Positions 31,330 to 43,108 of a DNA stretch of 64,000 nt are shown here, piece after piece. The stretch spans positions 62,001 through 126,000 of the forward strand of contig JAIQFK010000006.1 of assembly GCA_020073305.1 (NCBI GenBank), read 5' to 3'. Made by a program: the position numbers and the translations under genes. Within the stretch, counting starts at the first letter, position 1, and each line of letters opens with the position of its first letter. The DNA is from Terriglobia bacterium. Lineage in GTDB: Bacteria > Acidobacteriota > Terriglobia > Bryobacterales > Bryobacteraceae. Below the pieces are notes generated by a model that made no database searches, had not been told where the DNA came from, and saw only the letters and a program-made list of their open reading frames with translations.

Positions 31330-32766
31330 TTGAGCCTCAAATCCATGCACTCTGCGACTCGTGTATTGATCCTGGCGCTGGCACTCTCGGGCTTGGTCCC
31401 TGGGCAGACGGCGGAGACCGCCCCGGAAACAAAAACGCCCGACGCCCTGCACGACCTAAGCGCGGCGCTGCAATCGCTCTCCCAACGCACGGGCCAATCC
31501 GTGGTTGAGATCTTTTCCACCGGATTCGTTCTCAATAATGAAGAAGAATCGGGCGATGCCGCCCTGCTTTCGCGTCAGCGCAGCACGGGCTCGGGCGTGA
31601 TCATCAGTTCGGATGGGTATATCGTCACCAACGCTCATGTGGTCAAGGGGGGGCGGCGCATTCAGGTACAGTTGGCCAAGTCGATGGAGCGGCCGGCGGG
31701 GCACTCGATACTCCAGCCGATGGCGACGAAGATGGACGCGAAGATCGTGGGCGTGGATCGCGACAGTGATCTTGCCGTCCTGAAAATCGACCGCACCGGG
31801 TTGCCGTTTCTGCACTTCGGCGATTCGGAGGAATTGCGGCAAGGACAGCTTGTCCTGGCGTTCGGTAACCCGCTGGGACTTGCGAACTCGGTGACCATGG
31901 GCGTGGTCAGCTCCATCGCGCGCCAACTCAAGCCGGACGACCCGATGATTTATATCCAGACCGATGCGCCCATCAATCCGGGCAACAGCGGCGGCCCTTT
32001 GCTCGATGCCGACGGCCGCGTGGTCGGGATTAATACCTTCATCCTGACGCAATCGGGCGGCAGCGAAGGAATCGGCTTCTCCATTCCGAGCAACATCGTG
32101 CGCAGTGTGGTGCAGCAGATCCGCAAAGATGGCCACGTACATCGCGGCCAGATTGGCGTATATGCGCAGACCATTACGCGTTCGCTCGCCGCCGGTTTGG
32201 GCCTCGCGCGCGACTGGGGCGTGGTGCTGGCCGACGTTGAGCCGGACGGACCCGCGGATGCTGCCGGCCTGAAGGTCGGCGACATTGTTGTCAGCCTGAA
32301 CGGACGAACGATGGAGAACGCCCGGCAGCTTCAGGTGAATCTCTATCGCCGCCCAGTGGGGGAGAAAGTCGCTATCGAAGCAATGCGCGGAGATCAGAAA
32401 CTCACTTTCGAAGTGGAAGTGATCGAGCGTGAGAATGATCCGCTGCGCTTTGCCGACATGGTAAAGCCCGAAGAAAATGTGATTCTGAGACTGGGCATTC
32501 TGGGTGTGGACATCAGTCAGAAGGTTGCGCAAATGCTGCCTGACTTGCGGAAAAAGTACGGCGTGGTGGTGGCGGCGCGCGCGGCCGGTTCTGCATACTC
32601 CACCGTGCTGGATCCAGGCGATGTGATCTATGCCGTCAACGGCGAACCCGTCACCTCGGTAGCCGCCCTGCGCGCGGCGTTGGACAAGCTAAAGCCCACA
32701 GACCCCACCGTCCTCCAGATCGAGCGCGATGGGCGCCTGATGTACATTGATCTGGAACTGGAGTGA
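31330..32766 (+). CDS. Periplasmic HtrA/DegP-like serine protease with two PDZ domains
   Basis: The 478-residue product has a signal peptide (SATRVLILALALSGLVPGQ). The trypsin-like domain covers residues about 50-270 with the catalytic triad: His in IVTNAHVV, Asp in VDRDSDLAVLKI and Ser in INPGNSGGPLL. A first PDZ domain follows (residues about 275-370: GVVLADVEPDGPADAAGLKV), then a second, more diverged one (about 385-475). HtrA proteases degrade or refold damaged envelope proteins. The start is TTG at 31330 or the ATG five codons later; the second gives a cleaner signal. Its last codons lie just before the his leader promoter. Confidence 0.9.
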   Translation: MSLKSMHSATRVLILALALSGLVPGQTAETAPETKTPDALHDLSAALQSLSQRTGQSVVEIFSTGFVLNNEEESGDAALLSRQRSTGSGVIISSDGYIVTNAHVVKGGRRIQVQLAKSMERPAGHSILQPMATKMDAKIVGVDRDSDLAVLKIDRTGLPFLHFGDSEELRQGQLVLAFGNPLGLANSVTMGVVSSIARQLKPDDPMIYIQTDAPINPGNSGGPLLDADGRVVGINTFILTQSGGSEGIGFSIPSNIVRSVVQQIRKDGHVHRGQIGVYAQTITRSLAAGLGLARDWGVVLADVEPDGPADAAGLKVGDIVVSLNGRTMENARQLQVNLYRRPVGEKVAIEAMRGDQKLTFEVEVIERENDPLRFADMVKPEENVILRLGILGVDISQKVAQMLPDLRKKYGVVVAARAAGSAYSTVLDPGDVIYAVNGEPVTSVAALRAALDKLKPTDPTVLQIERDGRLMYIDLELE

Positions 32767-32776
32767 GCGATTCTGC

Positions 32777-32782
32777 TATAGT
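32777..32782 (+). promoter_or_regulatory. -10 box of the his leader
   Basis: TATAGT at 32777-32782 lies ten bases before the ATG of the leader peptide (nine bases between). The best -35 at a proper distance (TGGAAC, 18-base spacer) matches only three of six bases. Transcription from here would start almost at the leader ATG. The call rests on the match and on its position directly upstream of the attenuator. Confidence 0.45.
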
Positions 32783-32791
32783 AGTTACTTC

Positions 32792-32866
32792 ATGAAACCT
32801 GCTTCCGTCGCCGGGCGCCACCCTCACCATCACGGCCATTCCCAAACGCGACGGGCGCTCTTCTAA
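32792..32866 (+). CDS. hisL: Histidine operon leader peptide
   Basis: A 24-codon frame, ATG to TAA, contains five histidine codons within seven (residues 10, 12, 13, 14 and 16; core HPHHHGH). It lies between the end of the protease gene and hisI, and ends 27 bases before an intrinsic terminator. A cluster of His codons ahead of a terminator in front of his genes is the hallmark of ribosome-mediated attenuation: scarce charged tRNA-His stalls the ribosome here. The peptide itself probably has no function. No Shine-Dalgarno is evident, so the transcript may be nearly leaderless. Confidence 0.85.
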   Translation: MKPASVAGRHPHHHGHSQTRRALF

Positions 32867-32916
32867 ATTTTCCAGAGCGAAATCGGAAAGGATGCCCGCC
32901 GCGGTCTTTGGCGGGC
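32813..32916 (+). promoter_or_regulatory. Histidine attenuator: mutually exclusive RNA hairpins
   Basis: Four pairing segments can be read directly. Segment 1 (32813-32819, GGGCGCC) pairs with segment 2 (32854-32860, GGCGCTC), enclosing the His codons. Segment 2 extended leftward (32847-32856, CGCGACGGGC) pairs with segment 3 (32894-32903, GCCCGCCGCG) over nine of ten bases: the antiterminator. Segment 3 (32894-32900) pairs with segment 4 (32910-32916): the terminator. A ribosome stalled on the His codons covers segment 1, frees segment 2 and allows read-through into hisI. Confidence 0.8.
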
Positions 32917-32923
32917 TTTTTTT
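32894..32923 (+). terminator. Intrinsic terminator of the his attenuator
   Basis: GCCCGCC, a nine-base loop, GGCGGGC, then seven T residues. The stem is perfect and GC-rich and the T-run is immediate, so this is a textbook Rho-independent terminator. It ends 13 bases before the hisI start, inside what would otherwise be the leader of the his messenger. Confidence 0.88.
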
Positions 32924-32936
32924 GTTATTGAACGAT

Positions 32937-33317
32937 ATGGACCTCGATTTTCAGAAGTCGGACGGCCTGGTGACGGCGGTGATTCAGGACCACGCCTCGG
33001 GCCGCGTCCTCATGGTGGGCTTCATGAACGAAGAAGCGTTTCGCAAGACCGTCGACACGGGCTTCGCAACGTTCTACAGCCGCTCGCGGCGGAAGTTGTG
33101 GTTGAAGGGCGAGACGTCGGGCCACCGCTTGGTGGTCAAGGAAATCTCGACGGATTGCGATCGGGATGCCGTGCTGGTGCGTGTGGAAGCGCTAGGCCCC
33201 GGAGTCTGCCACAACGGCTATCAGAGTTGCTTCTACCGGCGGCTTGAAAATGGACGGTGGGTGGAATCGGAGGCCCGCACCTATGACCCGAATATGGTCT
33301 ACGGGAGCCAAGAATGA
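32937..33317 (+). CDS. hisI: Phosphoribosyl-AMP cyclohydrolase HisI
   Basis: The 126-residue product is the cyclohydrolase alone: [34 protein letters not shown], then [14 protein letters not shown] and [13 protein letters not shown], with the Cys residues that bind zinc. It opens the purine ring of phosphoribosyl-AMP, the third step of histidine synthesis. The HisE pyrophosphohydrolase domain, often fused here, is missing. The frame continues upstream to an ATG at 32892, but that would put the terminator inside the gene, so the ATG at 32937 was chosen. It overlaps hisG by four bases. Confidence 0.93.
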
Positions 33318-34183
33318 GATTGAAGCTGGGCATCCCCAAAGGCAGCCTCGAGGCAGCCACCATCGACCTGTTTCGCCGCGCCGGCTACAACATCACTACC
33401 AGCACGCGGTCGTATTTTCCGGCGATTGATGATCCGGAAATTGAATGCATGCTGATCCGGGCGCAGGAGATGGCGCGCTACGTCGAAGACGGCATTTTGG
33501 ACGCGGGCTTGACGGGCCGCGATTGGGTGGAAGAGAGCGAAGCGAAGGTGGAGGCGATCGCCGATCTGGTCTACGCCAAGCAGAGCTTCGGCAAGGTGCG
33601 GTGGGTGCTGGCCGTGCCTGAGGCTTCTCCATTTCACTCCGTGAGAGACCTGCAAGGTAAAATCATCGCGACCGAACTGGTGGCCACCACGAAGCGCTAT
33701 CTGGCGGCGAACGGCGTGAACGCCAAGGTCGAGTTCAGTTGGGGCGCCACGGAGGTGAAGCCGCCGGTGCTGGCCGATGCGATTGTCGAGGTCACCGAGA
33801 CCGGCTCGTCGTTGCGCGCCAACAAGCTCAAGATCATCGACACGGTCTTGGAGTCGAATACCCAGCTCATTGCCAACGCGGACTCCTGGAAAGACACTGA
33901 GAAGCGGCGGAAACTCGAAGACATGCGCATGCTTCTCGAGGGCGCCATCAACGCGCTGGGAAAAGTCGGGCTGATGCTGAACGTGCACAAAGACAGTCTG
34001 GCCAAGGTGCTCGCCGTGCTTCCGGCGCTCAAACGGCCCACAATTTCACACCTGAGCGATGAAGACTGGCTGGCCGTGAATACGATTCTGGATGAATCGA
34101 CCGTGCGCGACATCCTCCCGCGTCTGAAGCAGGCGGGCGGGCAGGGAATTGTCGAATACCCGTTGAATAAGATCGTGATGTGA
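33314..34183 (+). CDS. hisG: ATP phosphoribosyltransferase, long form HisG
   Basis: The 289-residue product is the long, self-sufficient form. The catalytic double domain begins [21 protein letters not shown] and includes [18 protein letters not shown], and [18 protein letters not shown] as the PRPP-binding segment. Residues about 210-289 form the ACT-like C-terminal domain ([20 protein letters not shown], ending in [10 protein letters not shown]) that binds histidine. It joins ATP and PRPP, the committed step, and should be feedback-inhibited by histidine through its own C-terminal domain, with no HisZ partner needed. Confidence 0.94.
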
Positions 34184-34190
34184 CCCGGCC

Positions 34191-35435
34191 ATGATTCGCA
34201 TCCTTGCCTCGAAACACATCAAGCGCATGCTTACGCGCCGCACGGCACGATTAACTGAGGCCGAAGCCGTGGTGCGTCCCATCCTGGAGGCGGTGCGAAA
34301 ACACGGCGACAAAGCGCTCCTGAATTACGCCCGGAAATTCGACGGGCTCGAGCGCAAGAGCGTCCGCGTACCCGAACGTGAGCTGTCGGCTGCTTGCGGA
34401 CAACTTTCAGCCGCTTTCCGCGAGGCCGTGGCCACAGCGTCGGCCAATATCCGTGCGTTTGCCGAAATGCAGATGCCGCCGGAGCGATTTCGCGAGGTGG
34501 AGCCGGGACTGCGCCTGGGCCAGATCGTACGGCCGCTCGATACGGTGGCGGCCTACATCCCCGCGGGCCGCTATCCGTTGCCCTCGACCCTGCTGATGAC
34601 CGTAATTCCGGCGCAGGTGGCTGGAGTTCGCCGCGTCGCGGTTGCGTGCCCGCGGCCGGTTCCGGAGGTTCTGGGAACCGCGCGGCTCCTCGAAGTCGGC
34701 GATGTCTTTCAGATGGGCGGAGCGCAGGCGATCGCCGCTTTCGCGTTCGGCACGCGAACGGTTCCGAAGGCCGATCGAATCGTGGGCCCCGGCAATATCT
34801 ATGTAGCGGCGGCGAAGAAGCTGCTGGCAGGTGAGGTTGGCATCGACTTCATCGCCGGCCCTACTGAAATTCTCATCATCGCAGCCGATGGCGATACGCG
34901 ACATCTCGCCGCGGACATGCTCGCGCAAGCAGAACACGACGCCGACGCGTGCGCGATCCTGTTGACTCCGTCGCAGGGCCTGGCGCGCGCGGTGGCTGGC
35001 GAAATCGAGCAGCAACTGAAGACCCTGCCCACGGCGGCCGTTGCCAGGCAGTCGATCCGCCGCAACAGCGCCATCGTCATCGTGAGTTCGCTGGATGAGG
35101 CCATCGAAATTGCGAACCGCTTCGCGCCCGAGCATTTGAGTATTCCCGATGAATCGCTGATCGAAAAGGTGATCAACGCGGGAAGTGTGTTCATCGGGCC
35201 GTTCAGTCCGGAGGCAGCGGGCGATTACGCATCGGGTCCCAATCACGTGCTGCCGACGAGTGGCGCTGCCCGGCTGAGGGGTGGGCTTTCCGTGATGGAT
35301 TACTTGAAAGTAATTTCCGTGCAGCAACTGAGTGCGGGCGCGCTGGGCCGGCTCGCTCCCGCCATTACGACGCTGGCGCGGGCCGAAGGACTCGAAGCGC
35401 ATGCCCGCTCGGTGGAGGTGAGGACCGGTGGTTAG
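34191..35435 (+). CDS. hisD: Histidinol dehydrogenase HisD
   Basis: The 414-residue product has the HisD marks in order: YIPAGRYPLPSTLLMTVIPA, FQMGGAQAIAAFAFGT, IVGPGNIYVAAAKKLL, FIAGPTEILIIA, LAQAEHDADA with zinc-liganding Gln and His, FAPEHLSI, and GPNHVLPTSGAAR. It oxidises histidinol to histidine in two NAD-linked steps. It starts seven bases after hisG and its stop is overlapped by the GTG of hisC. The length is normal. Confidence 0.94.
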   Translation: MIRILASKHIKRMLTRRTARLTEAEAVVRPILEAVRKHGDKALLNYARKFDGLERKSVRVPERELSAACGQLSAAFREAVATASANIRAFAEMQMPPERFREVEPGLRLGQIVRPLDTVAAYIPAGRYPLPSTLLMTVIPAQVAGVRRVAVACPRPVPEVLGTARLLEVGDVFQMGGAQAIAAFAFGTRTVPKADRIVGPGNIYVAAAKKLLAGEVGIDFIAGPTEILIIAADGDTRHLAADMLAQAEHDADACAILLTPSQGLARAVAGEIEQQLKTLPTAAVARQSIRRNSAIVIVSSLDEAIEIANRFAPEHLSIPDESLIEKVINAGSVFIGPFSPEAAGDYASGPNHVLPTSGAARLRGGLSVMDYLKVISVQQLSAGALGRLAPAITTLARAEGLEAHARSVEVRTGG

Positions 35436-36510
35436 CGTGAAGCCGGCCAGGGTTCCGAAAGGCCTCGTGCGGCCGCGTGAGGCGGTGCTGAAGATGGCGC
35501 CCTATTCGCCGCCTACCGCGGGCCGCGAGGGGAAACTCCGGCTCGACTTCAACGAAAACACGGTAGGCTGCTCGCCTCGCGTGATTGAATTTCTGCGAGA
35601 ACGCCTGAGCGCCGGCGGCCTGGCTGTCTATCCCGAGTACGCGGACACAAAGCAAGCGCTGGCGGAGTTCTTCCAGGTGAAGCCGGGAGAGCTTCTGCTG
35701 ACGAACGGCACCGACGAAGCCATTCAGGTGTTGATCAATACGTATGTGGATGCCGGCGACGAAGTGGTGGTGCTGCGGCCGGCGTACGCCATGTACCGCT
35801 TCTATGCTGAAGTCGCGGGTGCGGCGATTCGCGACGTAGCCTACCGGCCTCCGCAAATGGATTTTCCACTAGACGAACTGCTCGATGCCATTACTCCCGC
35901 GACGCGAGCCGTCATCATCGCCAATCCCAACAATCCTACCGGGACTGCCGTGCAGTTCCATGGAATCGAAAGAATTCTCAAGCGGGCGCGCAGGGCGGTG
36001 GTCTTGATCGACGAAGCGTATTACGAGTTCTGCGGCGTCACCGCGCTGCCGCTCCTCGAACGTTCGCTGAACCTTTTCGTGAGCCGCACGTTTTCGAAAG
36101 TCTACGGCATGGCTGCCATGCGGCTGGGATGTGTATTCTCAAATCCGGCCAACATCGCGTTTCTGCACAAAGCCCAGTCACCTTACAGCGTGAACACCGT
36201 GGCGGCGCTCGCGGTGCAAGCTGCGGTGCGCGACCGCGCTTACGTCGAAAACTATGTGGCCGAAGTGCTGGCTGCGCGCGAGTTGCTGTGCGTGGGCCTG
36301 GAAAAGCTGGGAATCAAGTACGTGCCCAGCTCGGCGAATTTCGTGCTGGCAAACCTGGGAAAGCGCGCCATCGGGATACGGGACACACTGCGCGGGCGCG
36401 GCATTCTGGTGCGGGACCGCAGCTACGAAGTTCCCGGCCATGTTCGCATGACCATAGGCACCCGCGAGCAGACGCGGCGCCTGCTGGCCGCGCTGAAGGA
36501 GATCTGGTGA
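35428..36510 (+). CDS. hisC: Histidinol-phosphate aminotransferase HisC
   Basis: The 360-residue product begins at GTG inside the last codons of hisD. Fold-type I aminotransferase marks are present: RLDFNENTVGCSP at the substrate end, LLLTNGTDEAIQVLINTY, IIANPNNPTGTAV, VVLIDEAYYEFCGV, and RTFSKVYGMAAMRLG with the PLP-binding Lys. It converts imidazole acetol phosphate to histidinol phosphate using glutamate. The first 20 residues are an extension relative to many HisC proteins. Its TGA overlaps the GTG of the next gene. Confidence 0.93.
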   Translation: MVSVKPARVPKGLVRPREAVLKMAPYSPPTAGREGKLRLDFNENTVGCSPRVIEFLRERLSAGGLAVYPEYADTKQALAEFFQVKPGELLLTNGTDEAIQVLINTYVDAGDEVVVLRPAYAMYRFYAEVAGAAIRDVAYRPPQMDFPLDELLDAITPATRAVIIANPNNPTGTAVQFHGIERILKRARRAVVLIDEAYYEFCGVTALPLLERSLNLFVSRTFSKVYGMAAMRLGCVFSNPANIAFLHKAQSPYSVNTVAALAVQAAVRDRAYVENYVAEVLAARELLCVGLEKLGIKYVPSSANFVLANLGKRAIGIRDTLRGRGILVRDRSYEVPGHVRMTIGTREQTRRLLAALKEIW

Positions 36511-37187
36511 GCGACCGGCTGCTGGTATTCGATATGGACGGCGTGCTGGTGGACGTCACCGAGTCGTACCGCGAGACCATTCAGCGCACCGTCGAGCATT
36601 TCGCCCAGCGGCGCATCAGCCGCGAAGAGATCCAGGACTGGAAGAACAAAGGAGGCTGGAACGACGACTGGGCGCTTTCGCACCGCCTCATCGGCGATAC
36701 AGGGGTGCGAGTGGAGTATCAAGCTGTTGTCGATTACTTCAACTCGATCTTCCACGGCAACGGATCGGATGGACTAATCCTGCGCGAGCGGTGGATCGCG
36801 CGGCAAGGCCTCTTCGAGAGGCTCGCGCGGAACTTTCAGTTGGCCGTCTTCACGGGCCGGCTGCGCTGGGAAGCTGAGCTGACGCTCCAGCGGTGCGCGC
36901 CGCACTTGCGCTTCGCGCCCGTCATCGGCACCGACGACGTCACGCGCCCGAAACCTGCGCCGGAGGGTTTGCTGAAGATCTGCGAACAATGCCGGCCCAG
37001 CGAGCGCTGGTACATTGGCGATACGGTGGATGATGCACGCTGCGCACGCGAAGCAGGCGTGCCCTTTGTCGGGATCGCGGCGCCCTCGAATCCTCGATAC
37101 CACGAACTGGTCGCGGTTCTGAAAGCTGAGAAGGCCATCGCGGTTCTGGACGACATCAATCAGCTGGAATCGGTGGTGAACGGATGA
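36507..37187 (+). CDS. HAD-superfamily phosphatase, candidate histidinol-phosphate phosphatase
   Basis: From the GTG at 36507 the product is 226 residues. It has the HAD motifs [12 protein letters not shown] (nucleophile Asp and acid-base Asp), [13 protein letters not shown] (motif II Thr), [14 protein letters not shown] (motif III Lys) and [17 protein letters not shown] (motif IV). It lies between hisC and hisB with overlaps at both ends. Histidinol-phosphate phosphatase is the only late pathway step otherwise without a gene here, since HisB lacks its phosphatase half. The assignment to that step is therefore by position and chemistry, not by motif. The frame is open far upstream inside hisC, but that part is a shadow. 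Confidence 0.8.
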
Positions 37188-37771
37188 GAAGCGCCGCCAT
37201 CGAGCGCAACACGAAAGAGACGCAGATCCGCGGCCGGCTCGTCATCGAAGGCCGTGGCCGTTACGAGATTTCGACGGGCATCCGCTTTTTCGATCACATG
37301 CTCGAGCTTTTCACCAAGCATGGCGGCTTCGATCTGAAGCTCCAGGCCACCGGCGATCTGGATGTCGACCAGCACCATACCGTCGAAGACGTGGGCATCG
37401 TGCTAGGGCAGTTGTTTTCGAGGGCGCTCGGCGATCGCCGTGGCATCAATCGCGCCGGATATTTTGTGTTGCCCATGGATGAAACGCTGGCCGTAGTGGC
37501 GCTCGATCTTGGCGGCCGCCCGGCGCTGGTCTACAAGGACCTGGTGCGCGTTCGGCTGGTCGGCGACCTGCAAACCGAACTGGTGGAGGATTTTTTCGGC
37601 GGCTTCGTCAATCACGCCGGCGCGAATCTCCACGCGAAAGTCCTCTACGGGCGCTCCAACCACCACAAGATCGAAGCGATTTTCAAGTGCTTTGCGCGGG
37701 CCTTGAAGTACGCCTGCTCCACCGACAAGCGTTTGCGCAATCAATTGCCGTCGACCAAGGGACTGCTATGA
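37184..37771 (+). CDS. hisB: Imidazoleglycerol-phosphate dehydratase HisB
   Basis: The 195-residue monofunctional enzyme has all the metal-binding motifs: [49 protein letters not shown] and [19 protein letters not shown]. It dehydrates imidazoleglycerol phosphate using manganese ions. The N-terminal HAD phosphatase domain of enterobacterial HisB is absent. Overlaps of four bases link it to the HAD gene before and hisH after. Confidence 0.95.
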
Positions 37772-38361
37772 TCGCCATTTTCGATTACGGCGCCGGCAAT
37801 CTCCGATCCGTGGAGAACACGCTGGGCGAGATCGGCGCTACCTACACGCTGGTCCGGGATGCCGCGGGTCTGCGCAAGGCTTCCAAAATCATTCTGCCCG
37901 GGGTCGGCCACTTCGGCCAAATGATGCGCGCTCTGGACCGCATGGAGGTGCGCGAGGCGTTTATCGAGTGCATTCGCGGAAGCGTGCCATTCCTGGGAAT
38001 CTGCCTCGGTTTGCAGGCGCTCTTCACATCCAGCGAAGAAGCTCCGGAGGTCCAGGGGCTCGGGGTCTTTCAGGGCACTGTTCGCCGGTTCCCGAAAGAC
38101 GCGCGCGTGCCCCACATGGGCTGGAACGAGCTCGAGTTGCGTGCACCCTCGCGACTCTTTTCACGCCTTGAACCCAAGCCGTACGTATATTTCGCGCACA
38201 GCTATTACGTGCCCGAAACGCAGGCCACGGCGGCCACGTGCCACTACTGCCTGCCGTACACCGCGGTCCTCGAAGCCGGCAACATTTTCGGAGTGCAGTT
38301 TCACCCCGAGAAGTCCGGTCCGGTAGGACTGCGGATCGTCAAGAATTTTGTGGAGATGTAG
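37768..38361 (+). CDS. hisH: Imidazole glycerol phosphate synthase glutaminase subunit HisH
   Basis: From the ATG at 37768 the product is 197 residues: [16 protein letters not shown] at the start, [14 protein letters not shown], the nucleophile Cys in [22 protein letters not shown], and the His/Glu pair in [12 protein letters not shown]. It releases ammonia from glutamine and channels it to HisF. A frame open to 37687 belongs to the hisB overlap. HisF follows after three bases. Confidence 0.94.
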
Positions 38362-38364
38362 CTC

Positions 38365-39129
38365 GTGCTTGCCAAGCGCATCATCCCGTGCCTGGACGTC
38401 ACCGGCGGCCGCGTGGTCAAAGGCGTCAATTTCGTCAATCTGCGCGACGCGGGCGATCCGGTCGAACTGGCGGACCGCTATAACCGCGAAGGAGCCGACG
38501 AGCTGGTGTTCCTGGACATCACGGCATCCAGCGAAGACCGCAACATCATGGCGGATGTTGTGGCCCGCACTGCGCGAAAGGTGTTCATCCCTCTGGCGGT
38601 GGGCGGCGGCATCCGTTCCGTCGCCGATGCGCGCCGCATCCTGATGTCGGGCGCCGATAAAGTTTCGGTAAATACGGCGGCCGTGCGGCGGCCCGAGCTG
38701 ATCACTGAGTTGAGCAACGAATTCGGGGCGCAGGCGGTGGTGCTCGCGATTGACGCGCGCCGGCGTGCGCCCTGCGCGTGGAATGTTTATACGCGAGGTG
38801 GGCGCGACGACGAGGGCATCGATGCCGTCGAGTGGGCGGCGCGCGGCGAAGCCATGGGAGCAGGTGAGATCCTCCTCACTTCTATGGATACCGACGGCGT
38901 CCAGCAGGGCTTCGATTGCGCACTGACGCGGGCCGTCTCCCGCGCCACGCACATCCCGGTGATCGCGTCGGGCGGGGCCGGGCAGCCGGATGATTTTCTG
39001 CACGTACTCACTGAGGGCGAGGCCGATGCCGCGCTGGCCGCATCCATCTTCCACTACGGAACGTGCACCATCGCGGAGTTAAAAGAGCACCTCGATCGCC
39101 ACGGCATCCCCGTCCGGAAAACCGCATGA
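38365..39129 (+). CDS. hisF: Imidazole glycerol phosphate synthase cyclase subunit HisF
   Basis: The 254-residue barrel begins at GTG. Marks: [22 protein letters not shown] with the catalytic Asp, [37 protein letters not shown] with the second catalytic Asp, [14 protein letters not shown] and [14 protein letters not shown]. It closes the imidazole ring and releases AICAR to purine synthesis. Its stop overlaps the hisA start (ATGA). Confidence 0.94.
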
Positions 39130-39836
39130 TCATTCCCTGCATCGACCTGATGGACGGGAAAGTCGTACAGCTTGTGCAGGGCCGCGAGAAGGCGCTCGAG
39201 GCGGATGCCCCGCTCGTCATGCTCGAAAAGTTCAAAGCGTTTCCCGAAATTCAGGTGATCGACCTGGATGCCGCCATGGGCCGCGGCGCAAATGATGATC
39301 TGGTGACGCTGGTGACCTCGCGTGCGGCGGCGCGGGTCGGCGGTGGCGTCCGTTCGGTCGACCGCGCAAGAGCGCTCATCGCCCAAGGCGCGCGCCGTGT
39401 GATCGTGGGCACGGCGGCTTTCGCAACGAACGGCGTGAACGAAGAATTCTTGACGGCCATTGCGGCCGCCATCGGGAAGGACCGCCTCATCATCGCGCTG
39501 GACTCCAAAGACGGCCAGATCGTTGTCAAAGGCTGGCGCCAGTCCATCAACCTGAGTGCGGAACAGGTCCTGAAGCCGCTGGAGCCATACTGTTCCGGCT
39601 TCTTGTGCACGTACGTCGACAAAGAAGGCATGATGCAGGGAACCGACCTCGACTGGTTCCGCCGCTTGCGAGCCGCGACTAGGCTCGAGATTACGGCCGC
39701 CGGCGGCATCACCACTCTCGACGACGTGCGCGCGCTGCAGGCCATGGGCGTCGATGCCGCCGTCGGCATGGCGATCTACACCGGGCGTCTGAATCTTGAA
39801 CACCTGGCCGCCTTGAATACGGAGAAGCTGTGCTAG
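39126..39836 (+). CDS. hisA: ProFAR isomerase HisA
   Basis: From the ATG at 39126 the product is 236 residues: [69 protein letters not shown] and [18 protein letters not shown]. It is the Amadori isomerase of histidine synthesis, an internally duplicated barrel homologous to HisF. It is the last his gene. The DUF1080 gene starts 17 bases later on the same strand, so transcription may continue. Confidence 0.93.
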
Positions 39837-39853: not shown

Positions 39854-40789
39854 ATGCGCGCTCTGCTTGTGTTCCTCCTACTCTCTTGGCGTGTCCTGGC
39901 GGACGACGCCCAGTTCAACGGGCGCTGGGACATTTTGGTTACAGGTGAACCGCGCGCCCGCGCGTGGTGGATGGAGATCAGCGGCGCGGGCACGCCGGCG
40001 CTCAAGGGGAAATTTGTCGGGTTCCCTGGCGGCGACCTGAACGACATTCCCCAGCCGACCATTCAGGACGGCTGGCTGCACTTCGCATTCGATTACAAAG
40101 ACTTTAAGAGCGGCAAACCGATGCACCGGGAATATCTTGTCAAGTACAGGAGCGGCAGGCTGTTTGGTGTCATGCGATCCTCGGATGGCGAGACAGTGCA
40201 ATGGGTCGGCAAACCCGCACCGGGAATCACCGAAAAAGACGACGCCGCGTGGCGCGACGGAACGCCGGTTGAGTTGTTCAACCACAAGGATCTTTCCGGC
40301 TGGCGCGGCCTCATTCCCAATCTTCCGCTCGGGTGGGCATTCAAAGATGGTGCTATGACCAATGCTGCGGGCGCCAACAACCTCGTCTCCGACCAGACTT
40401 TCTGGAATTTCAAGCTGCACGTCGAATTCCGCGTTGGCGAACATAGCAACAGCGGCATCGGACTGCGCGGACGTTATGAAGTGCAGATTCTCGAGGACTA
40501 TGGCAAGCCGCCGAACCTGCACAGCAACGGCGCGCTCTACAGCCGCATCGCTCCCTCGGAGAATGCCAGCAAACCGGCCGGTGAATGGCAGGCCTACGAT
40601 ATCCGGTTGGTGGGACGCCAGGTCTCGGTTGTGCTGAACGACAGGAAGGTTATCGACAAGCAGGAAATCGAGGGCCTGACCGCCATTGCCGGCGATGCCG
40701 ACGAAAGCAAGCCCGGCCCGATCATCCTGCAAGGGGACCACGGACCCGTCGAATTCCGTAACATCGTGCTCACCCCGCTGGTCAAGTAA
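39854..40789 (+). CDS. Secreted DUF1080 (3-keto-disaccharide hydrolase-like) protein
   Basis: The 311-residue product has a signal peptide (MRALLVFLLLSWRVLADD). Residues about 20-125 form an N-terminal beta-rich region. Residues about 135-310 match DUF1080, a concanavalin-like fold: VELFNHKDLSGWR, then LVSDQTFWNFKLHVEFRVGE, GIGLRGRYEVQILEDYGKPP and GPIILQGDHGPVEFRNIVL. Recently characterised members hydrolyse 3-keto-glycosides, and the fold also binds glycans. It follows hisA on the same strand but has no histidine link. Confidence 0.85.
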   Translation: MRALLVFLLLSWRVLADDAQFNGRWDILVTGEPRARAWWMEISGAGTPALKGKFVGFPGGDLNDIPQPTIQDGWLHFAFDYKDFKSGKPMHREYLVKYRSGRLFGVMRSSDGETVQWVGKPAPGITEKDDAAWRDGTPVELFNHKDLSGWRGLIPNLPLGWAFKDGAMTNAAGANNLVSDQTFWNFKLHVEFRVGEHSNSGIGLRGRYEVQILEDYGKPPNLHSNGALYSRIAPSENASKPAGEWQAYDIRLVGRQVSVVLNDRKVIDKQEIEGLTAIAGDADESKPGPIILQGDHGPVEFRNIVLTPLVK

Positions 40790-40803
40790 AGCTGCGGCCT
40801 CGA

Positions 40804-41727
40804 ATGAATGCTGACGCCCCCATCGCAGGCATTTTCGTAGCCGCCGTCACACCCCACCGGCAGAGGGATGGTTACGAAACGGACGTTGGCGCACTGCTCG
40901 AAATGTTGGATTTTCTTTCCGGCGCCGGCGTGAATGGCGTTGCGCTCCTGGGCTCGACGGGTGAGTTTCTGCATCTGACCGTCGACGATCGCGTACGGAT
41001 GGTGCAGCTTGCGGTGAAACGCAGCCGAGTGCCGGTGCTGGTGGGAGTGGGACATTCTACGCTCGATGGCGCCATCGCACTCGGCCGCGAGGCGGTATCC
41101 GCAGGCGCCGCGGGATTGCTCCTCATGCCTCCATACTTCTTCCGCTACAGTCAGGAAGACATCCAGGAATTCTATCTGCAGTTCGCTGCGGCGGTCGGAC
41201 CGGCGCGCATTCTGCTCTACAATGTGCCGTTCTTCACCAATGAGATCGCCATCGAAACGGCACTCGGCCTGCTGGACACGGGACACTTCGCCGGGATCAA
41301 GGATTCCAGCGGGCAGTACGGTTATTTTGAGCGCTTGCTTGCCGTGTCCAGGGAGAAACCCTTCACCTTGCTGGTGGGCAACGACCGCATCTACACTCGG
41401 GCGCGCCAGGCGGGAGCGCATGGCGTGGTCTCCGGAGTGGCTTGCGCGGTTCCGGAGTTGCTTGTGGCGCTTGACCGCGCGATTCAGAAGAACCTGGCTG
41501 GCGACGTGGAACGGCTCGATGCCAAGCTCCAGGAGTTCATCGCCTGGCACGATCGTTTCCCAACCCCGGTTGCCATCAAGACCGCGGCTCGGGAACGTGG
41601 GTTGACCGTGGGGCCGCTCGCCATGCCCCTGGCTTCTGGAAGCCGGAAGTGCCTGGAAGAATTTGGCGAATGGTTCAAGAGCTGGCTTCCCGTCGTTCAG
41701 CGAGAAGCCGCACTCGTAATAAAATAG
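40804..41727 (+). CDS. DapA/N-acetylneuraminate lyase-family aldolase
   Basis: The 307-residue barrel has the family motif GVALLGSTGEFLHLT near residue 45, the catalytic Tyr in ILLYNVPFFTN and the Schiff-base Lys in HFAGIKDSSGQYGYF. It belongs to the dihydrodipicolinate synthase superfamily, which makes or breaks C-C bonds with pyruvate. It sits next to DUF1080 and a decarboxylase, away from lysine genes, so a sugar-acid aldolase is as likely as DapA. It starts 15 bases after the DUF1080 stop. Confidence 0.88.
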   Translation: MNADAPIAGIFVAAVTPHRQRDGYETDVGALLEMLDFLSGAGVNGVALLGSTGEFLHLTVDDRVRMVQLAVKRSRVPVLVGVGHSTLDGAIALGREAVSAGAAGLLLMPPYFFRYSQEDIQEFYLQFAAAVGPARILLYNVPFFTNEIAIETALGLLDTGHFAGIKDSSGQYGYFERLLAVSREKPFTLLVGNDRIYTRARQAGAHGVVSGVACAVPELLVALDRAIQKNLAGDVERLDAKLQEFIAWHDRFPTPVAIKTAARERGLTVGPLAMPLASGSRKCLEEFGEWFKSWLPVVQREAALVIK

Positions 41728-41731
41728 GCGC

Positions 41732-43108
41732 TTGCCTCCCGAAGAATTCCGCAAAATCGCGCACGAGGTGGTTGACTGGATGGCGGATTATCTCGCCCAT
41801 GTCGAGCGCTATCCGGTCTTGCCAAGCGTCAAACCCGGGGATCTGGCCGACTCACTGCCCCGCTGTGGTCCCGAACACGGCGAGCCGATGTCCGCCATTC
41901 TGGAAGATTTTCGCCGCCAAATCGTACCCGCTGCCACGCACTGGAACCATCCCGGCTTCATGGCTTATTTCGCGACCTCCGCGTCCGGTCCCGGCATCCT
42001 GGGCGAGATGCTGTCCGCGACCCTGAACATGAATGGCATGCTGTGGAAGACCTCGCCTGCCGTTGTCGAACTGGAACAGGTGACGCTCGACTGGCTGCGC
42101 CGCTGGATCGGATTGACCGATCCTCTGTTCGGGATCATCTTCGACACCGCTTCCACCAGCAGCATGCACGCCATCGCCGCCGCCCGCGAGATGGTTGCCC
42201 CGGAAGTCCGTACCGAAGGCGGTGGCGCAGGACTTGTTCTCTACACTTCGGAGCAGGCGCACTCCTCCATCGAGAAAGGCGCCATTGCTATCGGGATCGG
42301 CCAGAAAAACGTGCGCAAGATTCCGGTGGATGGCGAGTTCCGCATGCGGCCGGATCAATTGGCGGCGGCCATCGAACACGACCGTGCCGCCGGCCTGCGC
42401 CCCTTCTGCGTGGTGGCCACCGTGGGCACCACCTCCACCACCAGCATCGACCCTGTCGATGCCCTGGCCCCGATCGCGGAGCGCCATGGCTTATGGCTGC
42501 ATGTGGACGCCGCTTATGCCGGGGTCGCGGCGATCGCGCCCGAGTTTCAACACATTCTGAAGGGCTGCGACCGCGCCGATTCGCTGGTCGTCAATCCCCA
42601 CAAATGGCTTTTCACACCGGTCGACTTGAGCGTGCTGTACACACGCCGCCCGGAAATCCTCCGTCACGCTTTTTCGCTCGTCCCGGAGTATCTGCGCACC
42701 GCGGAAGATCCGCGGGCGGTCAACTACATGGATTACGGTGTTCCGCTGGGCCGCCGTTTTCGAGCCCTGAAGCTGTGGTTCGTGCTGCGTTACTACGGCC
42801 GCGAAGGGATCGCGCAGATGATCCGCAACCAGATCGCGTGGGCGCAGGAACTAGCACGCCAGGTAGATGCGGACGACCGCTTTGAGCGCACTGCGCCTGC
42901 GCCGTTTTCCACCGTTTGTTTCCGGTTCAAAGGCAGCGACGAAGAAAACCAGGCGCTGCTCGAGCGCGTGAACGCCACGGGCGAGGTCTTCCTTTCCCAC
43001 ACCGTGCTCCACGGCCGGTTCACGCTAAGGCTCGCCATCGGCAACATCGGCACCACGCGCGCTCACGTCCAGCGGGCCTGGGAACTGGTGAAAGCCAACG
43101 CGCGCTGA
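41732..43108 (+). CDS. PLP-dependent aromatic-L-amino-acid decarboxylase family protein
   Basis: The 458-residue product begins at TTG, four bases after the aldolase stop. Marks of group II decarboxylases: HWNHPGFMAYFATSAS, IIFDTASTSSMHAIAAAREM, VVATVGTTSTTSIDPVDALA, LWLHVDAAYAG, VVNPHKWLFTPVD with the PLP Lys, and the arginine-rich C-terminal part. Relatives decarboxylate DOPA, tryptophan, tyrosine or phenylalanine, or act as aldehyde synthases. The substrate is unknown. It is the last gene of the long plus-strand run that starts at the his attenuator. Confidence 0.9.
   Translation: MPPEEFRKIAHEVVDWMADYLAHVERYPVLPSVKPGDLADSLPRCGPEHGEPMSAILEDFRRQIVPAATHWNHPGFMAYFATSASGPGILGEMLSATLNMNGMLWKTSPAVVELEQVTLDWLRRWIGLTDPLFGIIFDTASTSSMHAIAAAREMVAPEVRTEGGGAGLVLYTSEQAHSSIEKGAIAIGIGQKNVRKIPVDGEFRMRPDQLAAAIEHDRAAGLRPFCVVATVGTTSTTSIDPVDALAPIAERHGLWLHVDAAYAGVAAIAPEFQHILKGCDRADSLVVNPHKWLFTPVDLSVLYTRRPEILRHAFSLVPEYLRTAEDPRAVNYMDYGVPLGRRFRALKLWFVLRYYGREGIAQMIRNQIAWAQELARQVDADDRFERTAPAPFSTVCFRFKGSDEENQALLERVNATGEVFLSHTVLHGRFTLRLAIGNIGTTRAHVQRAWELVKANAR

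Follow-up and report, generated by a model that had tools for sequence, protein, structure and literature searches.

Directly upstream of a histidine biosynthesis cluster, a 64,000-nucleotide stretch of DNA (the window) carries an element that, judged from sequence and comparison with relatives, is very probably a ribosome-mediated transcription attenuator of that cluster, sensing charged tRNA-His. The predicted element comprises a leader peptide with His codons, a promoter-like box at characteristic spacing, a terminator, and an antiterminator complementarity that covaries among relatives. The same design is predicted to be widespread in Acidobacteriota, and its leader probably starts at the very 5′ end of the transcript.

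The element and the his cluster

The features in the window are as follows.

32774–32782, + strand: extended −10 promoter element TGC-TATAGT; the gap to the leader ATG is 9 nt
32792–32866, + strand: leader peptide ORF of 24 codons plus stop TAA, from sequence and relatives; probably translated from a leaderless mRNA
32805–32811, + strand: region 1, pairing with 32848–32854; would be a protector helix if the ribosome is absent; moderately supported
32819–32839, + strand: regulatory stretch in which five of seven codons are His, from sequence; the His run is kept in relatives
32847–32857, + strand: region 2, antiterminator 5′ strand, within the final leader codons
32893–32903, + strand: region 3, antiterminator 3′ strand, of which 32894–32900 doubles as the terminator 5′ arm
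32910–32923, + strand: region 4, the terminator 3′ arm (32910–32916), plus seven T (32917–32923)
32937–33317, + strand: hisI, first gene of the cluster; the start at 32937 agrees with residue 1 in relatives
33314–39836, + strand: hisG, hisD, hisC, HAD-family phosphatase, hisB, hisH, hisF, hisA
39854–43108, + strand: three close-spaced genes (3-keto-disaccharide hydrolase domain, DHDPS family, PLP decarboxylase)

The leader described in an initial annotation made from the letters alone, 24 codons long and with five His in a run of seven, is present at 32792–32866. It encodes MKPASVAGRHPHHHGHSQTRRALF, with His at codons 10, 12, 13, 14 and 16 and the stop codon TAA at 32864–32866. An Rfam scan of the window found no family above its gathering score, enterobacterial leader and T-box models included. 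At a lax threshold on 32700–33000 the top match was Thr_leader (18.7 bits against the 55 required), and the list contained no histidine leader family.

The nine-gene his cluster of the initial annotation was also recovered (hisI, hisG, hisD, hisC, HAD-family protein, hisB, hisH, hisF and hisA); hisA and the HAD protein fall short of their NCBIfam cut-offs, and hisH is assigned from its Pfam glutamine amidotransferase domain and position. The three genes at 39854–43108 may share the his transcript. The last of them, the PLP decarboxylase gene (41732–43108), lies close behind the cluster; its best match among solved structures is DOPA decarboxylase (7xin), with histidine decarboxylase (4e1o) ranking lower. 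The window belongs to contig C25 of genome G000. A search of this genome for hisE found nothing over the TIGR03188 cut-off, the sole match scoring 23.1 against 42.7 bits (G000:C35:61963–62115), and this pathway step could rely on a divergent enzyme.

Conservation in the order and its near relatives

Within the window's order and among its near relatives we fetched 130 loci, of which 19 were duplicates, leaving 111 distinct loci (the first set). A His-rich leader precedes hisI in 98 and is absent in 13. Leader starts were placed by hand for L017, L020, L025 and L027 in an initial round, and for L017 and L027 in the count that gave 98. A strict scan (ATG-started ORF of 8–32 codons, at least 3 His in 7, no more than 260 nt upstream of hisI) was positive in 95/111 loci, compared with 1/111 on the reverse strand and 37/4,440 dinucleotide shuffles; with an adjacent −10 box the counts were 90/111, 0/111 and 1/4,440. 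Both His codons are used in first-set leaders (CAT 322, CAC 220), and leader residues beyond the His run vary among relatives. Attenuation of the his cluster through His codons, as first proposed, is supported by alignment with other Acidobacteriota, in which relatives retain both the His-codon frame and the competing stems of the predicted element.

A His leader is lacking in all six loci fetched from genus g37. The leader of L064 has nine codons and just two His. The leader is gone from L006 (G003), whose flanking −10 box and terminator upstream of hisI are retained; this is either a true loss or an assembly fault.

The labels of HisI relatives bear out the acidobacterial origin suggested initially. 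Eighty of 573 relatives in named GTDB contigs were retained, with labels such as Bryobacteraceae, Bryobacterales, Solibacter, Terriglobia and Acidobacteria; the sole differing label, Chthoniobacterales (L121), belongs to a locus that has no leader. The host is therefore an acidobacterium of the Bryobacteraceae kind.

Terminator and antiterminator

The terminator drawn by eye in the initial annotation (32894–32900 with 32910–32916, then seven T) was found with seven pairs, and its antiterminator (32847–32856 with 32894–32903) with nine of ten pairs and one A·C mismatch. Folding 32780–32930 gave an unremarkable energy (z = −1.08, with 27 of 200 shuffles as good); the case therefore rests on comparison with relatives. 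For this we built a structure alignment from 69 of the 98 leader loci, leaving out close copies and odd cases.

In this alignment the terminator has 99.2% of its cells paired and is followed by a T-rich tail. About 20 nt separate the hairpin from the hisI ATG, so that the hairpin might instead hide the hisI start region, the leader then governing initiation of translation rather than termination of transcription. We regard this as very unlikely, as seven T directly follow the hairpin and the tail is T-rich across the alignment, as in an intrinsic terminator, and no hisI Shine–Dalgarno sequence is apparent by eye inside the hairpin.

The antiterminator is paired in 78.6% of cells, compared with 33.8–45.5% for slid registers. 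Six of its pairs show double changes, a number reached by 4 of 500 shuffles, and none of the 500 equals it in paired cells, cells with double changes, kinds of pair or covariation score; such alignment-based covariation counts are inflated because the rows are related. One pair (columns 105–169) is unpaired in 40 of the 69 sequences, the window among them, and RNAalifold on the alignment recovers the terminator only. Complementarity was also measured at single loci, by comparing the binding of region 3 by region 2 with that by dinucleotide shuffles of region 2. The mean z-score was −1.71 over 87 first-set loci, 7 of them above zero, and −2.15 over 75 loci of a second set described below, 1 of them above zero, with Stouffer values of −16.0 and −18.6; summed z-scores and shuffle counts overstate significance because related loci are not independent. 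Individual cases can be seen by eye. In L195, of family f8, GCGTGTTGGCGG in the leader pairs with CCGCTGACGCGC through twelve pairs including three G–U; in L049, GTCAGTGGGC stands opposite GCCCGCTGAC (ten pairs); in L050, GCCGGGTT stands opposite GGCCCGGC (eight pairs); and the counterpart words in the window are GCGACGGGCG and TGCCCGCCGC. Covariation and complementarity thus support both the predicted terminator and the predicted antiterminator.

The first helix of the initial annotation (32813–32819 with 32854–32860) can be drawn, with six Watson–Crick pairs and one G–U, but is weakly supported by relatives: 52.6% of cells are paired, compared with 35.5–47.2% in slid registers, and 39 of 500 shuffles are as high. 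The minimum-energy fold of this region holds another helix, 32805–32811 with 32848–32854. This is paired in 64.4% of cells of the alignment of relatives (slid registers, 33.3–47.3%), a value matched by 2 of 500 shuffles; shuffles are as high in 19 of 500 for the covariation score and 244 of 500 for double-change pairs, and all of these statistics are favoured because the helix was taken from the window's own fold. The first helix was probably misplaced, and 32805–32811 with 32848–32854 fits better.

An HtrA/DegQ-like protease gene ends at 32766 in the window, and His-rich peptides are able to bind metals; the hairpin could in principle be the terminator of that gene, next to an unrelated, perhaps metal-binding, small protein rich in His. 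This we consider extremely improbable. Among 180 leader loci, 5 have an HtrA-like gene in the flank that was fetched (many flanks are short), residues outside the His run are variable, region 2 is complementary to region 3, and other operons bear leaders rich in their own amino acid.

A probable leaderless start

The initial annotation did not notice how the leader begins. We analysed the start in 175 loci (96 from the first set and 79 from the second), having dropped 5 of 180 leader loci that have no ATG. A TAnnnT box ends 5–10 nt upstream of the leader ATG in 156 of the 175 (87/96 and 69/79), where the ATG counted is the nearest before the His run and the earlier choice of reading frame had favoured frames with a −10 box. 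By profile, the gap is 8 or 9 nt in 82/96 first-set and 48/79 second-set loci; a smaller excess occurs at 3 nt (10/96, first set), and counts at each gap of 12–35 nt are 0–3. A TG extension of the −10 box is found in 65 of 98 family loci. The usual spacing from −10 element to start would put transcription initiation 0–3 nt before the leader ATG. Shine–Dalgarno-like words precede the ATG in just 7 of 175 loci (2/96 and 5/79).

These are the features expected of a leaderless mRNA, a −10 box at the distance that suits a start at the ATG and rarity of Shine–Dalgarno-like words, and because of them the leader is probably leaderless. Both the 5′ end and the role of the box are predictions from sequence, and the same His attenuator could instead be read from a more distant upstream promoter, its transcript having an ordinary 5′ leader and the −10-like box not being the start site. 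We think this unlikely, given the peak at a gap of 8 or 9 nt in both sets, the low counts at 12–35 nt and the scarcity of Shine–Dalgarno-like words. Leaderless genes average 13.3% in three acidobacterial genomes, according to an excerpt of the source (PMC3160421).

Proposed mechanism

We infer a leaderless 5′ end, ribosome stalling and a switch that would work as follows. RNA polymerase would start at, or about 0–3 nt from, the leader ATG, and a ribosome would load on the RNA 5′ end without a Shine–Dalgarno sequence. If charged tRNA-His runs short, the ribosome would stall at the early His codons and cover region 1; region 2 could then pair with region 3, blocking the terminator and allowing the his genes to be transcribed. 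When charged tRNA-His is plentiful, the ribosome would reach the stop codon and mask region 2, leaving regions 3 and 4 to make the terminator. With no translation, regions 1 and 2 would pair and the terminator would again form. The distances fit this classical scheme: with the ribosome on the first His codon, region 1 would be covered and region 2 left free, and with it on the stop codon, region 2 would be covered.

We examined the ribosome states by folding. In a test on 162 loci, transcripts were cut at the terminator loop and the stalled ribosome was set on the first His codon; mean pairing of regions 2 and 3 was 0.78 and 0.76 (two sets) when stalled and 0.53 and 0.44 with no ribosome; that pairing never falls with the ribosome is nearly built in, because removal of upstream sequence removes competitors. 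With region 2 shuffled as a control, pairing in the stalled state was 0.53 and 0.49, and the real region 2 beat the shuffled one in 154 of the 162 loci. In the window, the naked transcript gives 0.81 and the stalled one 0.85, so that the calculated effect of the protector helix is small.

Equilibrium folding of full transcripts mostly favours the terminator, even if the stalled ribosome sits on the first His codon; a switch is seen in 30 of 162 loci (16/87 in the first set and 14/75 in the second), and in the window for the first His codon only. The single control, Escherichia coli hisL, has a value of at least 0.99 in all four states tried, and because it fails likewise the equilibrium test is uninformative. 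As equilibrium favours the terminator, the decision would have to be kinetic.

Spread across the phylum

A covariance model of the element, searched in 396 Acidobacteriota genomes (E ≤ 0.01, strict filters), matched 58 genomes at 60 places and recovered the site in the window's own genome. Apart from that site the model gave two weak matches in the same genome (E = 0.78 and 3.35), the first of which is the opposite strand at the attenuator site itself.

The second set joins the 59 places outside the window's own genome to 40 regions upstream of HisI genes without a model match; it represents mostly other families of the phylum and is partly selected by the motif model. The 40 regions were hand-picked from 217 of 297 genomes with a HisI match, 17 from family f8 and 23 from others; the 23 had good HisI matches, and genomes with weaker ones were left out. 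Of these 99 loci, 93 have a his-gene match and 86 of the 93 a His leader. Among the regions lacking a model match, a His leader occurs in 34 of 40 (33 distinct). Six of the 59 places are without a his-gene match; L162 and L190 are described below, and L158, L178, L180 and L187 look like chance matches. Some second-set loci are from outside the window's class, so the predicted element is shared by several families and extends beyond a single class.

All sets together hold 201 distinct loci, 180 with a leader, 170 of these ATG-started. A clean terminator was located by script in 162 of the 180 leader loci and not in the other 18. On this comparison, the predicted His attenuator design is widespread in Acidobacteriota.

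Downstream of the leader, the terminator-tail word TTTTTTATTG occurs in 22 of 97 leader loci of the first set and in none of the 83 of the second. The E. coli his terminator (L269) has the same tail, perhaps by coincidence.

Other amino-acid operons

In the window's own genome, an Ile/Leu/Val-rich leader, MFEGSTSRSVRSESLVSIIILVIVSGPA, and a terminator precede ilvB (L249; G000:C47, minus strand). A −10 box, TACACT, lies upstream, its end 8 nt from a GTG and 11 nt from the ATG. The leader and terminator are conserved in ilvB loci of the family. We tested 8 of 11 ilvB loci, chosen by their peptide endings, for antiterminator pairing against mononucleotide shuffles; z-scores ranged from −1.36 to −3.51 (Stouffer −7.0).

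No Trp-rich ORF accompanied by a −10 box came up in eight trpE-like loci of the window's family (f1); one of these loci, L241, has an ORF with three Trp upstream of the trpE-like gene and no −10 box. Elsewhere in Acidobacteriota, Trp-rich leaders with a −10 box and a terminator (MDVQPAGANNYFWCWYRQGGWSAF and MMTNVVTHKWWWKTQRNRWASV) stand before trpE-like genes at L162 (G070) and L190 (G257). L183 (G345) was scored by the script as lacking a leader (a misplaced match), yet its His leader, MNITRAHRHHHHHHQR, precedes a hisZ-like gene. The trpE-like proteins of L162 and L190 and the hisZ-like protein of L183 score under family cut-offs, and two of the three are truncated by the locus end.

We lean slightly towards the view that leaderless attenuation is ancient and general in Acidobacteriota, serving his, branched-chain and, in some lineages, trp genes, with the AUG as the 5′ end of the transcript. 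If so, the ribosome would load once the RNA leaves the polymerase, and amino-acid sensing would depend on leaderless initiation.

Comparison with known systems

Like the element described here, E. coli hisL, which we also folded, has a short leader with a run of His codons and a terminator before the first his gene. It differs in having seven consecutive His codons in 16 and an operon that starts with hisG. The E. coli his leader has a 5′ UTR and more alternative helices; in the window hisI comes first, four segments suffice and the −10 box abuts the leader ATG.

The initial annotation held that His attenuation is little described outside Proteobacteria. It had, however, already been predicted in Firmicutes; excerpts of two papers report His leader attenuators in the Bacillus cereus group, some Eubacteriales and Erysipelotrichales (PMC9413887) and for hisS/hisZ of bacilli (PMC2965389). 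As described there, these share with the present element leader peptides with His codon runs, a terminator and an antiterminator (PMC9413887, PMC2965389). The Firmicutes predictions cover 17 genomes in three groups, as far as the excerpt goes (PMC9413887), whereas here the element spans several families of another phylum and has a probable leaderless start. An excerpt of a study of Actinobacteria states that conserved RNA structure was not seen before histidine operons (PMC1262725). For Acidobacteria, no description of His attenuation appeared among the open-access matches listed; a 2010 survey by Lopatovskaya et al. may hold earlier predictions.

A known parallel to the start is trpL of Sinorhizobium meliloti, in which, by the excerpted account, the attenuated RNA likewise begins with the ATG of the leader ORF (PMC7298713). 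That system concerns tryptophan in an alphaproteobacterium and has been studied experimentally, whereas the present one is predicted. With it, an abundant soil phylum gains a predicted system of amino-acid control whose sensor is clear, and the 180 distinct natural variants offer a way to ask how a ribosome lacking a landing site keeps pace with RNA polymerase. The logic of the predicted attenuator is classical; the probable leaderless leader and the spread in Acidobacteriota are probably its new part.
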